Source: Lysobacter spongiicola DSM 21749
GTDB lineage: Bacteria; Pseudomonadota; Gammaproteobacteria; Xanthomonadales; Xanthomonadaceae
NCBI RefSeq assembly: GCF_900167055.1
Contig: NZ_FUXP01000001.1
Span: forward strand, 124,001-188,000
Reading direction: 5' to 3'
DNA: 64,000 nucleotides
Shown: positions 3,055-16,797 of the stretch, in pieces
Numbering within the stretch: position 1 is the first letter of the stretch
Layout: each line of letters opens with the position of its first letter
Translations under genes and position numbers: made by a program
The notes under the pieces: model-generated
What the model was told of the DNA's origin: nothing
The model's input: only the letters and a program-made list of their open reading frames with translations
Databases searched by the model: none

Positions 3055-4968
3055 GTGAGCAGGGGCGGCAGCGAATTCGACGGCAAGGCCTTCGCCAAGG
3101 GCCTCAGTACCGCGCCCGGCGTCTACCGGATGATCGGCGCCGACGACAAGGTCCTGTACGTTGGCAAGGCCAGCGCGCTGAAAAACCGTGTCTCGAGCTA
3201 CTTCAACGCGACGCCGAAGTCGTCGCGCATCATGGCGATGCTCTCGCAGACGGTGCGCATGGAGGTGACGGTCACGCGCACCGAGTCCGAAGCGCTGATC
3301 CTCGAGAACCAGCTGATCAAGTCGCTCAAGCCGCGCTACAACGTGCTGCTGCGCGACGACAAGAGCTACCCGTACGTGTTGCTGACCCAGGAGCAGTGGC
3401 CCCGGATCGCCATGCACCGGGGGCCGCGCTCGGTACCCGGGCGGTACTTCGGCCCATACGCGAGCGTGGGCGCCGTACGCGACACACTCAACCTGATCCA
3501 CAAGCTGTTCAAGCTGCGCAGTTGCGAGGACAGCGTCTTCCGCAACCGCTCCCGGCCGTGCCTGCAGCACCAGATCGGCCGCTGCAGCGCGCCGTGTGTC
3601 GGCCTGGTGGCGGGGCGCGAGTACGCCGAAAGCGTGCGTCGCGCGACCCTGCTGCTGGACGGCCGAAGCGATGAACTCACTGGCGAGCTGGGGCGCGCGA
3701 TGGAGGCGGCGAGCAAGCGGCTGGAGTTCGAGGAGGCGGCGCGCCTGCGCGACCTGGTCGGCTCCATCCGCACGCTCCAGGCCCGGCAATACGTGGACGG
3801 GCGTGCCGCCGACCTCGACGTGCTCGCGGTATCGATGCAGGGCAGCGCGGCGTGCGTGGTCCTGCTGGCCTTCCGCGATGGCCGCAACCTGGGGACGCGT
3901 TCCTTCTTCCCACGCACCAACGGCAGCGAGAATCCCGAAGAGGTGCTGGCCGCGTTCGTCTCCCAGTACTACGGCGAGCAGATCCCGCCGCGCGAGATCG
4001 TGCTGGACCGGGACATCCCGGACCGGGAACTCATCGAGCAGGCACTCTCCAGCTCCGGCGAGCGCAAGGTACAACTGCGCTGCCGGGTGCGGGGCGAACG
4101 CGCCGGATACGTGGACATGGCGACGCGCAACGCGCAGGTCGCGCTGGCCACCGAGCGGACCAGCCACGCCGCCCAGCTGGCACGTGCCGAGGCGCTGCGC
4201 GACCTGTTGGGAATGGCGGCGCTGCCTTCGCGCATCGAATGCTTCGACATCAGCCACACCATGGGCGAGGCCACGGTGGCCTCCTGCGTGGTGTTTGACG
4301 CCGAGGGACCCGTGCGTGGCCAGTACCGCCGCTACAACATCGCCGGCATCGAGCCCGGCGATGACTATGCAGCCATGCACCAAGCGATCAGTCGCCGCTT
4401 CCGCCGCGCCGCGCCGGCGCCGGCCGAAGAGGTGGCGGACGCGGGAGTCAACGCCAAGGTGGGCAAGCGCGCCAGCAAGGCCGAGGCCGTATTGCCCGAC
4501 ATCCTCCTGATCGACGGCGGAGCGGGGCAGGTCGCGCAGGCGAAGTCGGTGCTGGACGAGCTGGGCATCGAAGGCGTGGCGCTGGTGGGCGTGGCGAAAG
4601 GACCGGCGCGGCGTCCGGGCGACGAGGAACTGCTGCTGCCGGATGGCCGCTGCGTGCGCCCGGGCGCGGACGCGCCGGCCCTGCAGTTGATCCAGCAGGT
4701 GCGCGACGAAGCCCACCGGTTCGCGATCACCGGCCACCGCGGCCGGCGCCAGAAGGCGCGCAACACCAGCCGGCTCGATGACATTGCAGGCATTGGCCCG
4801 CGGCGGCGCGGAAACCTGCTTCGCCACTTCGGCGGTTTGGGCGGCCTGAAGGCCGCTGGAGTGGAGGAGATCTCGCGCGTGGAAGGCGTCAATCACGCGC
4901 TCGCCGAGCGCATCTATGCCACCCTGCACGGGCTCGAAGGACAAGGCGCCAGTACGCCGACGGAGTAA
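3055..4968 (+). CDS. uvrC: Excinuclease ABC subunit C
   Basis: UvrC makes the 3' and 5' incisions around DNA lesions in nucleotide excision repair after UvrA/UvrB loading. The 637-aa product has the full domain order: N-terminal GIY-YIG nuclease (GVYRM and YVGK, residues about 20-95), a UVR helical hairpin (about 205-238) for UvrB contact, a C-terminal RNase-H-like nuclease (CFDISHTMGEA near 396 and LIDGGAGQV near 485), and tandem helix-hairpin-helix motifs (DDIAGIGPRRRG). I prefer GTG 3055 with AGGGGG upstream over an in-frame GTG at 3004, because homologs begin just before the FDGKAF segment. A possible -10 box CATAAT is at 2949-2954. pgsA follows 3 bp later, so the two form an operon. Confidence 0.95.
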   Translation: MSRGGSEFDGKAFAKGLSTAPGVYRMIGADDKVLYVGKASALKNRVSSYFNATPKSSRIMAMLSQTVRMEVTVTRTESEALILENQLIKSLKPRYNVLLRDDKSYPYVLLTQEQWPRIAMHRGPRSVPGRYFGPYASVGAVRDTLNLIHKLFKLRSCEDSVFRNRSRPCLQHQIGRCSAPCVGLVAGREYAESVRRATLLLDGRSDELTGELGRAMEAASKRLEFEEAARLRDLVGSIRTLQARQYVDGRAADLDVLAVSMQGSAACVVLLAFRDGRNLGTRSFFPRTNGSENPEEVLAAFVSQYYGEQIPPREIVLDRDIPDRELIEQALSSSGERKVQLRCRVRGERAGYVDMATRNAQVALATERTSHAAQLARAEALRDLLGMAALPSRIECFDISHTMGEATVASCVVFDAEGPVRGQYRRYNIAGIEPGDDYAAMHQAISRRFRRAAPAPAEEVADAGVNAKVGKRASKAEAVLPDILLIDGGAGQVAQAKSVLDELGIEGVALVGVAKGPARRPGDEELLLPDGRCVRPGADAPALQLIQQVRDEAHRFAITGHRGRRQKARNTSRLDDIAGIGPRRRGNLLRHFGGLGGLKAAGVEEISRVEGVNHALAERIYATLHGLEGQGASTPTE

Positions 4969-10885: not shown

Positions 10886-11272
10886 ATGCGCTATCCCGTC
10901 ATGATTGAAGCTGGCGACGAGAACACCGCATGGAGCGTTGTGGTTCCCGACCTTGCTGGCTGTTTCTCGGCCGGCGACACGTTGGACGAAGCAATGTCTG
11001 CCGTAGAAGAGGCGGCAGCAGCATGGATAGACGCTGCCTTGGATCGGGGGAGGGAGATTCCTCGTCCCTCGTCCGCACAGTCCGCCATGGAAAAGGGGGA
11101 TTTCTCCGGCTGGATCGTGAGCTATGTCAACGTGGACCCCGCGCTTCTCGATGACACCATTGAACGGGTCAACATCACGCTTCCCAAGCGTGTCCTGATG
11201 CGGCTCGACGCGAAGGCAAGAGAGTCGGGGCAGAGTCGGTCCGGCTACATCGCCCACATGGCCATCGGCTAA
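10886..11272 (+). CDS. hicB: HicB-family antitoxin
   Basis: A 128-aa antitoxin. Residues 1-60 form the partial RNase-H-like HicB fold (YPVMIEAGDENTAWSVVVPD, LAGCFSAGDTLDEAM) that neutralises HicA. The C-terminal 35 residues (ERVNITLPKRVLMRLDAKARESGQ...) are a ribbon-helix-helix DNA-binding domain, so it should repress its own promoter through the palindrome at 10675-10691. AGGAGG (10875-10880) sits just before ATG 10886, giving much stronger translation than hicA, as needed for antitoxin excess. An intrinsic terminator follows. Confidence 0.93.
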   Translation: MRYPVMIEAGDENTAWSVVVPDLAGCFSAGDTLDEAMSAVEEAAAAWIDAALDRGREIPRPSSAQSAMEKGDFSGWIVSYVNVDPALLDDTIERVNITLPKRVLMRLDAKARESGQSRSGYIAHMAIG

Positions 11273-11913: not shown

Positions 11914-12687
11914 TCAGCGCGCGGTGTAGCCGCCGTCGATCACCAGTTCCGAGCCTGTCACGAACCTCGACTCGTCCGACGCGAGGTAGACCACGCCCCA
12001 GGCAACGTCGTCGGGTTGTCCCACCCGCCCCAGGGGATGCAGTTGTGCGAGGTCCGACTTGCCGTTCTCCATGTCCGGCTGCCCGCTGTCGCGCAGATGC
12101 TGTTCGACCAGGGGGGTCCAGATGTAGCCCGGGTGGACCGAGTTCACCCGGATGCCTTCTGCCGCGTAGATCATGGCGTCGGTCTTCGTCATCAGCGTCA
12201 CCGCACCCTTGGAGGCGTGGTAGGGCGGCAGGTCCGGCGCTCCCACCAGCCCGTAGATCGAGGAGAGGTTGATGATGCTGCCGCCGCCGGCTTGCCGCAG
12301 ATGGGGCAGGGCGTGCTTGGTGCAGAAGAAGACACCCTTCACGTTGATGCGTTGCACCCGGTCCCATTCGGCCTCGCTGATCTCGTGGGTGGGCTTGTTG
12401 GCGCCTGCAATCCCGGCGTTGTTCACCAGCACGTCGATGCTGCCGAACGTCTCGGAGACGCTGTCCATCGCCTGGGCCACGTCGGATTCGTCGCCGACAT
12501 CCACGTGCCAATAGCGGGCGCTGAGGCCCCGCGCCTCCAATGCCGACACCAGCTCCCGTCCTGCCTCGTCCTGCAGGTCCATGACGGCCACGCGGGCGCC
12601 TTCTTCGGCCAACCGTTCCACGCAGGCCCGCCCGATACCGACGGCTCCCCCGGTGACGACGCAGGTCTTGTTCTTCACGCGATTCAT
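11914..12687 (-). CDS. SDR family NAD(P)-dependent oxidoreductase
   Basis: A 257-aa classical short-chain dehydrogenase/reductase. The Rossmann cofactor loop TGGAVGIG is at 12-19, NNAG at 89-92, and the catalytic Ser142/143 (INLSSIYG), Tyr156 and Lys160 (YHASK) are intact. Asp37 (VAVMDL) after the second beta strand favours NAD(H). The substrate cannot be read from the sequence; homologs include 3-beta/17-beta-hydroxysteroid and cyclopentanol-type dehydrogenases. ATG 12687 has AAGGAG upstream and overlaps the stop of the preceding MBL-fold gene (ATGA), so the two are translationally coupled. This is unusual for these unrelated families. Confidence 0.9.
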   Translation of the reverse strand: MNRVKNKTCVVTGGAVGIGRACVERLAEEGARVAVMDLQDEAGRELVSALEARGLSARYWHVDVGDESDVAQAMDSVSETFGSIDVLVNNAGIAGANKPTHEISEAEWDRVQRINVKGVFFCTKHALPHLRQAGGGSIINLSSIYGLVGAPDLPPYHASKGAVTLMTKTDAMIYAAEGIRVNSVHPGYIWTPLVEQHLRDSGQPDMENGKSDLAQLHPLGRVGQPDDVAWGVVYLASDESRFVTGSELVIDGGYTAR

Positions 12688-13604
12688 GTCGGACTCCTTG
12701 GCAGGGACGGTGGGGTGGCAGTGCAGGGAAAGGCGGAGCTCGAGGTCAGGTCCACGTGGTCCCGGAACTCCGGCACGCATACCGGGATGCCAAGCTCCCG
12801 TTCCACCCGCTGGCGAAGCGCATCGGCGGCATCCGGTTCGCCGTGGGTCAGGAATACCCCTCGCGGTTGGCGGGGTGCCGATCCCAGCCAGGCGAGCAGC
12901 TCGTCGGCGTCGGCATGTGCCGAGCCCGTGTCCAGCTGGAAGACCTGTGCCCGGACATCGATATCGCACACGATCCAGTGGCTGTCGGCAGGCGCCTGCG
13001 GGGCGTGCATCACCGGGTCGGACGGGCGACCAATGTCACCGCTGAAAGTGATGCGGCTGCCGGCATGCTCCAGCGTGACCGCCCCGGCACCGAGGATGTG
13101 GCCCTGTGGACGGATCGAAGCGGAACACCCGGGAACGGGTTCGAACTGCTCCCCGAACTCGATCGTCACCATTCGCTGGAGCGCCGCGGCGGCTTCCTCC
13201 TCGGTGTAGAGCGGCCTGGCGGGGTGGTGGCGGGAGGAGCCGATGCGGTTGGCGTGCACGGCCTCTTCCTGCAGCAGTCGCGCAGAATCCGGCAGCAGGA
13301 TCGAGCACAGGTCGCGGGTGCCGCGGGTGCACCAGACGGGCCCGTCGAATCCCTCGGCGACGAGCCGTGGCAAATAGCCGCTGTGGTCCAGGTGGGCGTG
13401 GGTCAGGATGACCGCATCGATGCTTTCGGGTTCGACGGGGAACGCCGACCAGTTCTTCAAGCGCAATGGCTTGTAGCCCTGGAAAAGCCCGCAGTCGACC
13501 AGTACGCGGGCACCTCCAGCCTGCACCAGGTAACGTGAGCCGGTGACAGTCCCTGCGGCGCCGAGAAAGGTGAGCGCAAACCCATTTTCAGCCGGGCCGC
13601 TCAT
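12684..13604 (-). CDS. MBL-fold hydrolase of the CPSF/RNA-specificity type, lacking the beta-CASP domain
   Basis: A 306-aa protein whose N-terminal part matches bacterial metallo-beta-lactamase-fold 'RNA specificity factor' exonucleases: FLGAAGTVTGSRYL, the metal motif HAHLDH (69-74), GHILGA with His169, and FSGD with Asp190. Full-length relatives have about 450-470 aa with a beta-CASP domain inserted after the VEST-YGD motif. Here the sequence jumps near residue 213 from the HWIVC strand to DIDVRAQVFQLDTGSAHADADE, which belongs after beta-CASP. It keeps the late motifs SAHAD (His230) and THGE (His254) but loses motif A and about 150 residues in frame. The C-terminus also runs on about 20 non-conserved residues into the SDR gene start. 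It may be a minimal hydrolase or a decaying gene; RNA cleavage seems unlikely. Confidence 0.75.
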   Translation of the reverse strand: MSGPAENGFALTFLGAAGTVTGSRYLVQAGGARVLVDCGLFQGYKPLRLKNWSAFPVEPESIDAVILTHAHLDHSGYLPRLVAEGFDGPVWCTRGTRDLCSILLPDSARLLQEEAVHANRIGSSRHHPARPLYTEEEAAAALQRMVTIEFGEQFEPVPGCSASIRPQGHILGAGAVTLEHAGSRITFSGDIGRPSDPVMHAPQAPADSHWIVCDIDVRAQVFQLDTGSAHADADELLAWLGSAPRQPRGVFLTHGEPDAADALRQRVERELGIPVCVPEFRDHVDLTSSSAFPCTATPPSLPRSPT

Positions 13605-13759: not shown

Positions 13760-14611
13760 TCAGCCGCGGGACGGGGCGTCCGCCTCCGCTGCCGCCCGTG
13801 CCAACCGTCCCGCCGGGCAATCGAGGAATTGCGAAGACGCGAGCCACTCCTCGTCCGGGTAGTACGCGAACACCAGGTGTCCGTCCTTGATCGTATCGAT
13901 GACCTCCCGCGCGACCTGCTGCCGCAGGGCGGGGCAGCCGAGGCTGCGACCCAGCCGGCCCTGGCGCAGGGCCTGCTCCGGGTCCACGTAAGGGGCGCCG
14001 TGGATGACGATCGCACGCGCCCGTGCGGCGTCGTTGATGCCGGGCTCGAGGCCGTCCATGCGCATGGAGTAGCCGTTGCTGCCCACGTAGGATTCGGCGG
14101 TGGAGAAGAGACCCAGGCTCGACTGGTAGCTGCCTTCGACGTTGGAGAACCGCTGTGCCATGTTCTCGCCGGTATTCCGTCCGTGCGCCACGTGTTCGGC
14201 GTACAGCAGGCGTTGGGAGGCGAGGTCGAACACCCACATCCGGGGCTCCGTGGACGGCCTGGAATAGTCGATCAGGGTGAGGTTCGCATCCGGACTGGCC
14301 TGGCCGGAGGCGACGGCGCAGTCCCGTGCCGCCAACGCGAGTCCAAGCGCGCGCGTATCCACGGAAGGTGCCGTGGCGACCAGCGTGGCCAGCATGCTCG
14401 TGGAAAGCGAGGCATTGCCGACGGTCGCTGCTGCCGTTCCGCCCGCTACGGTCTTGGCAGCCGTGGCAGAGGCTGTCGTGGCCGGAGCCGGGGTGCCAGC
14501 GGTTGAGCGACTGGACGAGGCGCCGCTGTCGCTGCCACCGGCGGGCGGAGCCGCGAGCGCCAGTGCCACTGTGGTTGCGAGGAGGACGGCGGGGAATCGG
14601 AATCCGGTCAT
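13760..14611 (-). CDS. Murein L,D-transpeptidase catalytic domain family protein (YkuD_2 type)
   Basis: A 283-aa exported protein with a signal peptide (residues about 1-22), an Ala/Thr/Ser-rich linker to about residue 75 and a YkuD_2-type catalytic domain. The active-site region reads AIVIHGAPYV followed by GRLGRSLGCPALR, giving the catalytic His and Cys of this subfamily. WVFDLASQRLLYAEHVAHGR and SSLGLFSTAESYVGSNGYS are family landmarks. It would act in the periplasm, forming 3-3 crosslinks or attaching ligands to peptidoglycan. It sits directly upstream, on the same strand, of a second L,D-transpeptidase of the ordinary YkuD family. Whether it performs transpeptidation or hydrolysis is not determined by sequence. 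Confidence 0.88.
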   Translation of the reverse strand: MTGFRFPAVLLATTVALALAAPPAGGSDSGASSSRSTAGTPAPATTASATAAKTVAGGTAAATVGNASLSTSMLATLVATAPSVDTRALGLALAARDCAVASGQASPDANLTLIDYSRPSTEPRMWVFDLASQRLLYAEHVAHGRNTGENMAQRFSNVEGSYQSSLGLFSTAESYVGSNGYSMRMDGLEPGINDAARARAIVIHGAPYVDPEQALRQGRLGRSLGCPALRQQVAREVIDTIKDGHLVFAYYPDEEWLASSQFLDCPAGRLARAAAEADAPSRG

Positions 14612-14681
14612 GAGTGAAAACTACGTGATAGCCGGGCCCGGGTCGACCCTTGGCACAACATCCTGTTCACCTTCGCCCCGT

Positions 14682-15728
14682 TTATTCATGTGCAGGTTCA
14701 GGTGCCTGCTGCGGCCGTGGTGCGCTCTCGAAGACGGTCATTCCCTGGTTGCTCACGGCGGAAACCGGCTCCGGGGTGACCAGGAGCGTGCTTCCGGGAG
14801 CGAGGGCGTCGTGCACCCGCTTCGCGAATTCCGGATCGATCCTGACCGCGCCGCCCCCGATCGCGGCGCCAGCCGCATCGACGTTCCCCGCGCTGCCGGC
14901 TTCCAATGGATCCCGCTGGAGATCCCGCTGGAGATCCCGCTGGAGATTCCGTTGGATCGGGATCCGCATCCAGTTCAGCGCCGGCCGGCCCGGCACCAGG
15001 CGGCTCTCACCGGCCGGGGTTCCGCCCATGACTGCGTAAGCCTGTGTGTGGACGTCCGGTGCGTCCACCGCGACATCGCCGCGTCCGATCTCGACACCCC
15101 CGCGCATGACGACGAGTTGCTGGTCGGCGATGCTCAGCACCATGGTGACCGGCCCCTGGTCCATTCGCTCAGGCTGCCAGGTCCATCGTGAGTCGGGCGA
15201 TGCACCTGTGCTGGCGGTTGCCATGCCGAGGGGCTCCGGCGACTGCAGTTGCGGCTGCCCAAGGCTCTGCGCCACCACCACCGTCATGCCGCGTTCGGTG
15301 ATGCCGAACAGGGCTTCGGAGAACTCGTACGGAAGCCGCACGCATCCGTGGGATGCGGGATAGCCCGGCAGATGGCCCGCATGCAGGGCGATGCCATCCC
15401 ACGTGAGGCGCTGCATGAATGGCATCGGCGCATTGTTGTACAGGTTGGAGTAGTGCTCGCGCCGCTTCTGCAGGATGTTGAAGATCCCGGTCGGCGTCTC
15501 GTGCCCCTCCTTGCCGGTACTCACGGGCGAGCTTCCGATGCGCACGCCGTTGCGATAGACCACCGCTCGTTGCTCATCGAGCCCGATAACGATGAGCACC
15601 GGCCCTTGCGGTGCCACTTCCGGCATCCAGGTGAATGGCACTGGCGGCTCGGCAGCGGCCGGGGTGGGCGTGGCGGAGATCGACAACATGCCCACTGCCA
15701 GGGCAGCAACGGCGAGAAAACCCCTCAT
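14682..15728 (-). CDS. L,D-transpeptidase (YkuD) with a degenerate second YkuD domain
   Basis: A 348-aa exported protein. The signal peptide is residues 1-26 (cleavage near AAAE). YkuD domain 1 (about 42-157) has the complete active site: TPTGIF, ALHAG and SHGCVRLP with putative nucleophile Cys129. Residues about 191-325 repeat the same order: GPVTMVLSIADQQLVVMRGG mirrors GPVLIVIGLDEQRAVVYRNG, and GGAVRIDPEFAKRV mirrors HGCVRLPYEFSEAL, but the His-Gly-Cys is replaced by Gly-Gly-Ala, so domain 2 should be inactive. Between them in domain 2 lies an LQRD repeat tract (12-bp DNA repeat). I chose ATG 15728 because AGGAG sits 8 bases upstream and it starts the signal peptide; ATG 15767 has no ribosome site. 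Confidence 0.9.
   Translation of the reverse strand: MRGFLAVAALAVGMLSISATPTPAAAEPPVPFTWMPEVAPQGPVLIVIGLDEQRAVVYRNGVRIGSSPVSTGKEGHETPTGIFNILQKRREHYSNLYNNAPMPFMQRLTWDGIALHAGHLPGYPASHGCVRLPYEFSEALFGITERGMTVVVAQSLGQPQLQSPEPLGMATASTGASPDSRWTWQPERMDQGPVTMVLSIADQQLVVMRGGVEIGRGDVAVDAPDVHTQAYAVMGGTPAGESRLVPGRPALNWMRIPIQRNLQRDLQRDLQRDPLEAGSAGNVDAAGAAIGGGAVRIDPEFAKRVHDALAPGSTLLVTPEPVSAVSNQGMTVFESAPRPQQAPEPAHE
14909..14956. repeat. In-frame 12-bp tandem repeat, four copies
   Basis: The unit GATCCCGCTGGA occurs three times exactly (14909-14944), followed by a fourth copy with two changes (14945-14956). On the minus strand it encodes repeated L-Q-R-D within the degenerate domain of the L,D-transpeptidase. 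Because the unit is 12 bp, copy-number change would alter protein length without a frameshift. Confidence 0.9.
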
Positions 15729-15843
15729 TCTTCGGACTCCTGCAACGCGCCTGATCAGCCAGCCCATGTTGCCCGACAGCCGAGGAGTCCGTTTGATCCC
15801 GATCAAGGGGAGCGCACGGGGACGGTAACCCTGCTTCCTCGGG

Positions 15844-16797
15844 CTAGAACGCCGTGCACTGTACGAAGCGCACCGGGATCCCACTCTCTTCGGGCGGTTG
15901 CAGCTGGATGCGGGAGTTGCGGATGTCCTCGTACTGCTCCAGCACCTGGCAGATCGCGTCCACGTGCTCCTTGCCGGCGGCTCCAGGCAGATACACCACC
16001 AGCGTCGAGCTGGTCGCCCACTGCACGCGCACGACGTCTGCCAGCGTCCCCACAGCCTGCGCAGCCTGTTGCCTTTGCTGGTCTTCGGTGAGGGTCGGGC
16101 GGGCAGGGGATAGCTCGCCTGCCGTGGGGGGGGCGACCGGTGCCGCGACCGGCGCAGGTGCCGGCGCGGGGTCCACGCGGGGCAGCGAAGTCGCCTCCGT
16201 TCCCGCCATTGCACTGGCCAGCCACGCCACGGCCAGGCAAGCCAGCACCACCACCACCCAGGTCATCGCAGTGGTCCGGACCGTCTTCCTGCGGGCTTGC
16301 GTCAGCAGGTCGTTGTGCACGCTGGGTGGTAGCAGCGGATCGATCAATGGCCACAGCGTGCGGCCATCGATCACCTCGATCTGCGCATGGCGTGTGGTGG
16401 AATCGGTATCGGCCTTTCCCAGCGTGGCGAGGATCCCGCCACTGGCGCCGCTGTCGCGCACGGCCCCGGCGAGCTCGTCCACCATCCCTGGCCTGATGCG
16501 GTGGTGCGTGCCCTGCTTGCAGCTGAGCAGCCAGATCTGGCCACCGCGGTTGAGCAGCAGGTCCGCCTTCTGGCCGCGGCTGGCATCGGGTTCGACACGG
16601 CTGGCCTCGAAGCCCTGCGCCTGCAGCGCCTCGATCACGAAGCGCGAGAATTCGCGCCAGCGCATCGCGCTCAATGTCTTCAGGCCCGCCTCGACCACCA
16701 GCCGCTGCGACCAGGTGGTCCACAGCCAGGCGGTGAAGGCGGCGCCGGCCACCACGATCAACAACAGTGCGGCGGGTGCCAGTGAAGCGTTGAGCAT
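15844..16797 (-). CDS. Membrane-anchored protein with Mrr-like restriction endonuclease fold
   Basis: A 317-aa protein: N-terminal transmembrane helix (about 8-28), a PD-(D/E)xK nuclease-like domain of the Mrr_cat type (about 40-150), a second transmembrane helix (about 176-198), a Pro/Ala-rich linker, and a C-terminal soluble domain ending in FVQCTAF. The nuclease core shows MRWREFSRFVIEALQAQGFE, K78-A79-D80-like acidic strand (KADLLL) and WLLSCKQ, where S-x-K replaces the usual Q-x-K. Such proteins are annotated 'restriction endonuclease', but the cleavage target is unknown. With two helices flanking it, the nuclease domain would probably be cytoplasmic. No methyltransferase is nearby, so a classical restriction system is unlikely. 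Confidence 0.75.
   Translation of the reverse strand: MLNASLAPAALLLIVVAGAAFTAWLWTTWSQRLVVEAGLKTLSAMRWREFSRFVIEALQAQGFEASRVEPDASRGQKADLLLNRGGQIWLLSCKQGTHHRIRPGMVDELAGAVRDSGASGGILATLGKADTDSTTRHAQIEVIDGRTLWPLIDPLLPPSVHNDLLTQARRKTVRTTAMTWVVVVLACLAVAWLASAMAGTEATSLPRVDPAPAPAPVAAPVAPPTAGELSPARPTLTEDQQRQQAAQAVGTLADVVRVQWATSSTLVVYLPGAAGKEHVDAICQVLEQYEDIRNSRIQLQPPEESGIPVRFVQCTAF

Follow-up and report, generated by a model that had tools for sequence, protein, structure and literature searches.

An MBL-RMMBL protein without a beta-CASP domain in Lysobacter spongiicola DSM 21749, probably a lineage-specific deletion allele of a beta-CASP ribonuclease paralogue

The beta-CASP ribonucleases, which include RNase J, CPSF73, Integrator 11 and Cas14, consist of an MBL core with an inserted RNA clamp. 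A gene of Lysobacter spongiicola DSM 21749, located in a 64,000-nucleotide stretch of contig NZ_FUXP01000001.1 (positions 124,001 to 188,000; called the window hereafter, with positions counted from its first letter), encodes a member of this family from which the beta-CASP cassette has been removed. The variant is real and well defined, belongs to a known enzyme family and occurs in one genome. Judging from sequence comparison, it is best explained as a lineage-specific allele of a dispensable TTHA0252-type beta-CASP ribonuclease paralogue carrying an in-frame deletion of 519 bp, with a probability of about 0.6. An earlier reading of the DNA letters (the sequence-only reading) had proposed that the beta-CASP domain was removed in frame while the metal site was conserved, and the present comparison supports such a descent from a full-length ancestor.

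The open reading frame begins with ATG and is intact as described earlier, with zero internal stops. In Pfam searches, its product matches Lactamase_B (66.4 bits, most strongly over residues 23-202) and RMMBL (65.8 bits, residues 214-278, cut-off 21.6), whereas Beta-Casp is not found at E <= 1. The same search recovers Beta-Casp in two positive controls, the orthologue L140 (110.2 bits, residues 256-375) and the full-length paralogue of the own genome (119 bits), which confirms the absence of the beta-CASP domain stated in the sequence-only reading. Among the hallmarks of beta-CASP ribonucleases, the protein displays MBL motifs 1-4, His230, His254 and RMMBL but not the beta-CASP domain. HAHLDH, His169, Asp190, SAHAD and THGE all lie at the positions first given for them (Table 1). 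The third-position G+C of the gene is 0.80, within the 0.71-0.89 of nine neighbouring genes.

Table 1. Features of the locus, in window coordinates.
Feature	Position	Strand	Basis
Gene of the beta-CASP-less MBL-RMMBL protein (306 aa)	12684..13604	(-)	Open reading frame; Pfam Lactamase_B and RMMBL
Asp37, MBL motif 1	13494..13496	(-)	Invariant in the 36-row alignment A1
HAHLDH, residues 69-74, MBL motif 2	13383..13400	(-)	Invariant in A1
His169, MBL motif 3	13098..13100	(-)	Invariant in A1
Asp190, MBL motif 4	13035..13037	(-)	Invariant in A1
Deletion junction Cys213/Asp214	12963..12968	(-)	Alignment with L140/L141 at protein and DNA level
Retained segment ahead of SAHAD (residues 214-227), predicted to be a disordered loop	12924..12965	(-)	pLDDT <50 at 219-226
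SAHAD, residues 228-232, motif B His230	12909..12923	(-)	Nearly invariant in A1
THGE, residues 253-256, motif C His254	12837..12848	(-)	H254 and G255 invariant in A1
C-terminal tail, residues 287-306	12687..12746	(-)	GC by codon position 0.40/0.90/0.70, unlike the rest of the gene
SDR-family oxidoreductase, 257 aa	11914..12687	(-)	Start overlaps MBL stop (ATGA); orthologue 82% identical in L140

The closest full-length orthologues are L140 (genome G029) and L141 (G097). Identity to them reaches 74-75% over residues 1-214, left of the junction, and 86-88% over residues ~214-286, right of it, so that the frame cannot be a chance one. Aligning both parts with full-length homologues, as had been advised, yields two matching blocks; between them, exactly 173 codons of L140 (519 bp), those separating its Cys214 from its Asp388, have no counterpart. 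The announced gap is therefore real, although larger than the roughly 150 residues first estimated. The cut stands at 12965/12966, the boundary between codon 213 (12966-12968) and codon 214 (12963-12965), which bears out the junction placed near 12966. The Beta-Casp match of L140 is entirely comprised within the gap, and its RMMBL match covers residues 388-452 in Pfam, residue 388 being the first one kept after the gap. Asp214 occupies the place of motif A, which in L140 is held by the Glu of ESTYG, this Glu itself being deleted; by alignment and in the models, Asp214 lies at the end of the strand, at the place of that Glu, and is a candidate motif A acid. In MTH1203, the motif A Glu is described as positioning the pair of histidines, one each from motifs B and C, that bind zinc (PMC3095777). 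A deletion through short repeats was considered; in the relatives, the two flanks of the junction have only the bases GA in common, which may differ from the ancestral sequence.

L140, 75% identical to the window protein overall, apparently comes from the same genome as L035 (NZ_JAINZW010000004.1, Lysobacter selenitireducens 13A). This orthologue resembles the window locus in both blocks (74% over residues 1-214 and 88% over 214-286) and in having an SDR gene downstream, but it counts 478 aa with the 173-residue segment and is followed by a BON-domain gene before the SDR gene. The own genome also carries a full-length paralogue (C16, ~259.5-260.9 kb) of 461 aa, 56% identical over residues 10-214, with a pyrimidine nucleoside phosphorylase-like gene and then a ribose-phosphate pyrophosphokinase-like gene on its 3' side. 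The same succession of the own-genome paralogue, a thymidine phosphorylase-like gene and a PRPP synthetase-like gene (L034:2121-5931) is found by Pfam in the alphaproteobacterial locus L055, and this operon thus crosses classes. One literature search on the association of the paralogue with phosphorylase and PRPP synthetase returned nothing.

The nearest solved relative is TTHA0252 of Thermus thermophilus (phmmer E 1.3e-35). The match falls into two segments: its residues 6-179 correspond to 14-207 of the window protein and its residues 364-410 to 214-264, the latter match being weak alone (i-E 0.16). It is also the best structural match and shares MBL motifs 1-4, the histidines of motifs B and C and RMMBL, but it has a beta-CASP domain, whereas the window protein has none and bears Asp214 at motif A. 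Profiles of other families are far from reached: 16.5 bits for RNase Z (ELAC) with TIGR02651 (cut-off 292.95), 181.4 bits for the Type VII CRISPR Cas14 MBL-CASP equivalog NF045584 (cut-off 800) and 21.1 bits for the subclass B3 metallo-beta-lactamases NF033105 (cut-off 240). LACTB2 and RNase Z (ELAC) are presented in PMC4770246 as MBL ribonucleases without a beta-CASP domain. LACTB2 is described as also missing the RMM domain and having an unrelated C-terminal domain, in contrast to the window protein with its RMMBL, and the RNase Z model scores the window protein very low.

A closed MBL fold is predicted by AlphaFold2 (mean pLDDT 84.3, pTM 0.86), in line with the check proposed in the sequence-only reading that the two pieces be shown to close; the method favours this outcome since the input alignment, made of the window protein and 35 homologues, is almost wholly composed of full-length sequences. 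The model superposes on TTHA0252, with residues from both halves of the window protein, at Z 30.3 and 1.7 A rmsd over 240 residues for the S378Q mutant and at Z 29.6 and 2.0 A over 246 residues for the wild type. Loops 41-45, 219-226 and 297-303 are of low confidence. In the full-length model, strands are formed by residues 387-390, which hold residue 388, and 394-398; the latter correspond to residues 220-224 of the window protein, a confident strand in the orthologue that becomes a low-confidence loop here. The removal had been called clean: by domain profile the cut is indeed exact, falling at RMMBL position 1, whereas the models would leave 14 residues, including a strand, without their neighbours.

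The locus is an accessory one of variable gene content: the MBL gene and any SDR match above 44% are absent from the other genus members, a BON gene is missing here and a copy of the MBL gene elsewhere contains a stop. L139, L140 and L141 all have a BON-domain gene (by Pfam for L140) placed between MBL and SDR, whereas in the window the MBL gene, with its TGA at 12684-12686, overlaps the SDR gene, with its ATG at 12685-12687, and the BON gene is lacking. BON domains are found at four other places in the own genome, none of them within the window. The BON gene has likely been lost from the window locus; this is not certain because other genes fill that place in more distant loci: visual inspection suggests an ORF resembling CBS proteins in L040 and L042, and one resembling flavodoxin in L146. 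The ATGA overlap would then probably be the product of this second loss. The overlap reported by the sequence-only reading is real, but it was rejected as evidence of selection, for which it counts little because the nearest relatives have the BON gene in between. The MBL locus decays elsewhere too: the second copy of genome G215 (L139:2410-3795), beside the same BON and SDR genes, contains an internal stop, and its match begins only at residue 26-27.

Upstream of the MBL gene stand two adjoining L,D-transpeptidase genes (YkuD_2 and YkuD, 13763-15761), themselves adjoining a gene for a protein with an Mrr_cat restriction-endonuclease domain (15847-16797); a HicB-like antitoxin gene is located at 10889-11269. 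The adjacent L,D-transpeptidase gene has a homologue (56-61%) in seven of the nine other genus members; none of the nine gives an SDR match above 44% (three at 41-44% in G004). The YkuD_2/YkuD pair recurs in G355, close to its MBL orthologue (L164), and in stretches from four genus members that have no MBL gene there (L160-L163). A promoter and terminator scan gave nothing above chance.

No orthologue was found in the nine other members of the genus. Three of them have the full-length paralogue only, and the six others give no match at E <= 1e-10. In broader samples, overlapping with each other and with that of the genus, matches occur in 233 of 395 genomes of the family (E <= 1e-30), 58 of 398 of the order (E <= 1e-55) and 140 of 369 of the class (E <= 1e-35). 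Each species is represented by one genome in the collection. Among the matches listed for these samples (10 genomes for the genus, own included; the stronger matches for the family and the class), only the own genome is matched in one piece over residues 1-306, and the same junction, for which a search in other genomes had been suggested, does not appear. At least 576 relatives were confirmed in the genome collection, of which the best 80 were kept; among these 80 loci, L055 is also short and four others are cut by contig ends. All other rows are full length in the 22-sequence alignment (21 of 21), as are 34 of 35 in A1, the exception being L055.

Several candidate short forms were discarded. 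Those of G735 and G730, with open frames of 312 and 307 aa, belong to related full-length copies (L156 and L157) divided between two reading frames, the one in G705 begins just 21 bases away from the end of its contig, and G338 holds a more distant copy with one stop. Among plasmids, 268 records match, and the 25 listed all span ~1.3-1.4 kb, which corresponds to full length; among phages, seven records match, one spanning both ends over 1.36 kb and six covering the N-terminal part only. No relative was found in viral contigs with the peptide patterns used, and a limited literature search revealed no natural bacterial beta-CASP protein that has lost the cassette and kept RMMBL.

Purifying selection has acted on the frame along most of its branch, and the data are compatible with a wide range of ages for the deletion. 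A branch codon model, fitted to the 287 codons that eight sequences share and in which synonymous change is saturated, gives an overall omega of 0.035, with 0.049 for the window branch and 0.029 for the background, a difference that is not significant (2dlnL 0.51). A faster change or decay on the window branch, suggested by a longer FastTree protein branch (0.200 against 0.10-0.12 for the sister line), was not retained, as relative-rate counts disagree: relative to L140, 23 protein changes are counted against 20 (17 against 18 in the N part, 6 against 2 in the C part), with 15 against 13 for the SDR gene. When the window branch is allowed to end in a neutral period, 0.06 gives the highest likelihood of the values tried, with a drop of 1.9 units near 0.22 substitutions per codon (~0.07 per site; interpolated between 0.2 and 0.3), for a branch length of 4-7 substitutions per codon. 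The gene has thus been constrained for ~95% or more of the branch, and the data fit anything from a fresh deletion to one followed by ~0.07 neutral substitutions per site. A young deletion evolving neutrally and an older one kept under constraint would look alike in this analysis; relative to the age of the branch, the event was probably recent. The sequence-only reading deduced selection from the frame, which holds in the long term (omega 0.03-0.05, no protein-level acceleration relative to the full-length sister). It had also paired confinement to one strain with a dN/dS near 1 as signs against itself: the deletion is indeed seen in one genome only, but dN/dS is far below 1, perhaps mostly through constraint preceding the deletion.

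Conserved positions were compared in two alignments. In the 22-sequence one (26 homologue loci given, five dropped as identical to others), 88 columns are invariant in the 21 orthologues, and the window protein departs from two of them (A53S and W273I), against 0-5 for the others. In A1, three of 66 columns conserved at 95% deviate (R50K, D209H and W273I), against 0-3 for the 34 full-length rows, R50K being common to L035. With eight sequences, ten changes affect invariant columns, four of them no more than 10 residues away from the junction (p 0.0018; 0.0018-0.037 over the five ranges tried). With 22 sequences, none of the two invariant-column changes does, and two of seven do at 90% conserved columns (p 0.03). 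This clustering was not accepted as proof of later adaptation, as it fades from eight to 22 sequences.

These features also bear on a tentative alternative, in which the protein is retained by selection as a functional small di-zinc hydrolase or non-processive ribonuclease with an open active site and broad substrates, similar to RNase Z or LACTB2. The intact frame and metal ligands, the cut at the RMMBL start with an acid, Asp214, at motif A, the predicted closed fold and the lack of protein-level acceleration relative to the full-length sister (17 against 18, 6 against 2) all suit it, and a clustering of changes near the junction (p 0.002 with eight sequences) would be expected if that part alone had been released. 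However, the clustering is weaker with 22 sequences, D209H and W273I alter nearly invariant residues, the low-confidence loop adjoins SAHAD, a full-length paralogue is present and the form exists in one genome only; besides, a catalytically inactive plant CPSF73 homologue minus beta-Casp gave no mutant rescue in the account of PMC6670113. Slightly more doubtful still is that a single internal deletion turned a beta-CASP ribonuclease into a working stand-alone di-zinc hydrolase. If this were true, all seven active-site motifs would survive without the clamp, the motif A acid being re-supplied by replacement of Glu with Asp214, and the protein would be a natural case of an MBL enzyme that has lost its specificity domain and is still under selection. 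The re-evolved stand-alone hydrolase suggested in the sequence-only reading goes beyond these data, the junction being seen in one genome and a fresh deletion being compatible with the data.

L055, from the alphaproteobacterial MAG Co_bin.385 (4010-4780), encodes a second in-frame beta-CASP-less form, of 256 aa, with Lactamase_B and a partial RMMBL and no Beta-Casp in Pfam. As in the window, the beta-CASP segment has been lost in frame, but the junction is another one, motifs A and B are lost, the genomic context is the thymidine phosphorylase-like/PRPP synthetase-like operon and the contig is of low coverage (1.03 according to its title). By eye against L156, its junction NADY/GEIL may derive from two short ADY-like repeats. 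Such an independent form beside intact phosphorylase-like and PRPP synthetase-like genes could indicate that domain loss is recurrent and adaptive in the family, with several origins; this is very unlikely, given the missing motifs A and B, the coverage of 1.03 and the fact that L055 is one of the best 80 loci, the own genome being the sole other case among the matches listed. An assembly or sequencing artefact hiding a full-length gene is just as unlikely: the species is represented by one assembly, but the gene lies inside an 895-kb contig of a genome given as 100% complete with 0.1% contamination, the reading frame is preserved exactly across the deletion, the flanks show ordinary divergence from the relatives throughout and the BON gene next to it has gone as well.

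The lineage-specific deletion of a dispensable paralogue agrees with the full-length paralogue in the same genome, the absence of the orthologue from nine genus members and the related copies with a stop (G215) or split frames (G735 and G730). On the other side, no stop, frameshift or metal-site change has appeared since the deletion, and neither an RMMBL-exact cut nor an acid at the motif A position is required of a random deletion; the two changed invariant columns, the omega of the window branch and the third-position G+C, all of them ordinary, also speak against it. According to this preferred explanation, a full-length TTHA0252-type paralogue would have lost 519 bp in frame in one lineage. 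The product should still fold as a complete di-zinc MBL core, into which the beta-CASP domain is merely inserted in full-length members. With the domain walling the RNA groove gone, the active site would be shallow and open, and by analogy with LACTB2 and RNase Z, little or no processive ribonuclease activity would be expected, at most a weak and unselective phosphodiester hydrolysis. Little or nothing of the beta-CASP-dependent role would remain, and the full-length paralogue could fill that role instead.

A core with its motifs and without its clamp offers a natural test of the part played by the clamp in folding, metal binding and RNA specificity. Even if the allele is merely decaying, it would still be a well-placed snapshot of gene loss.
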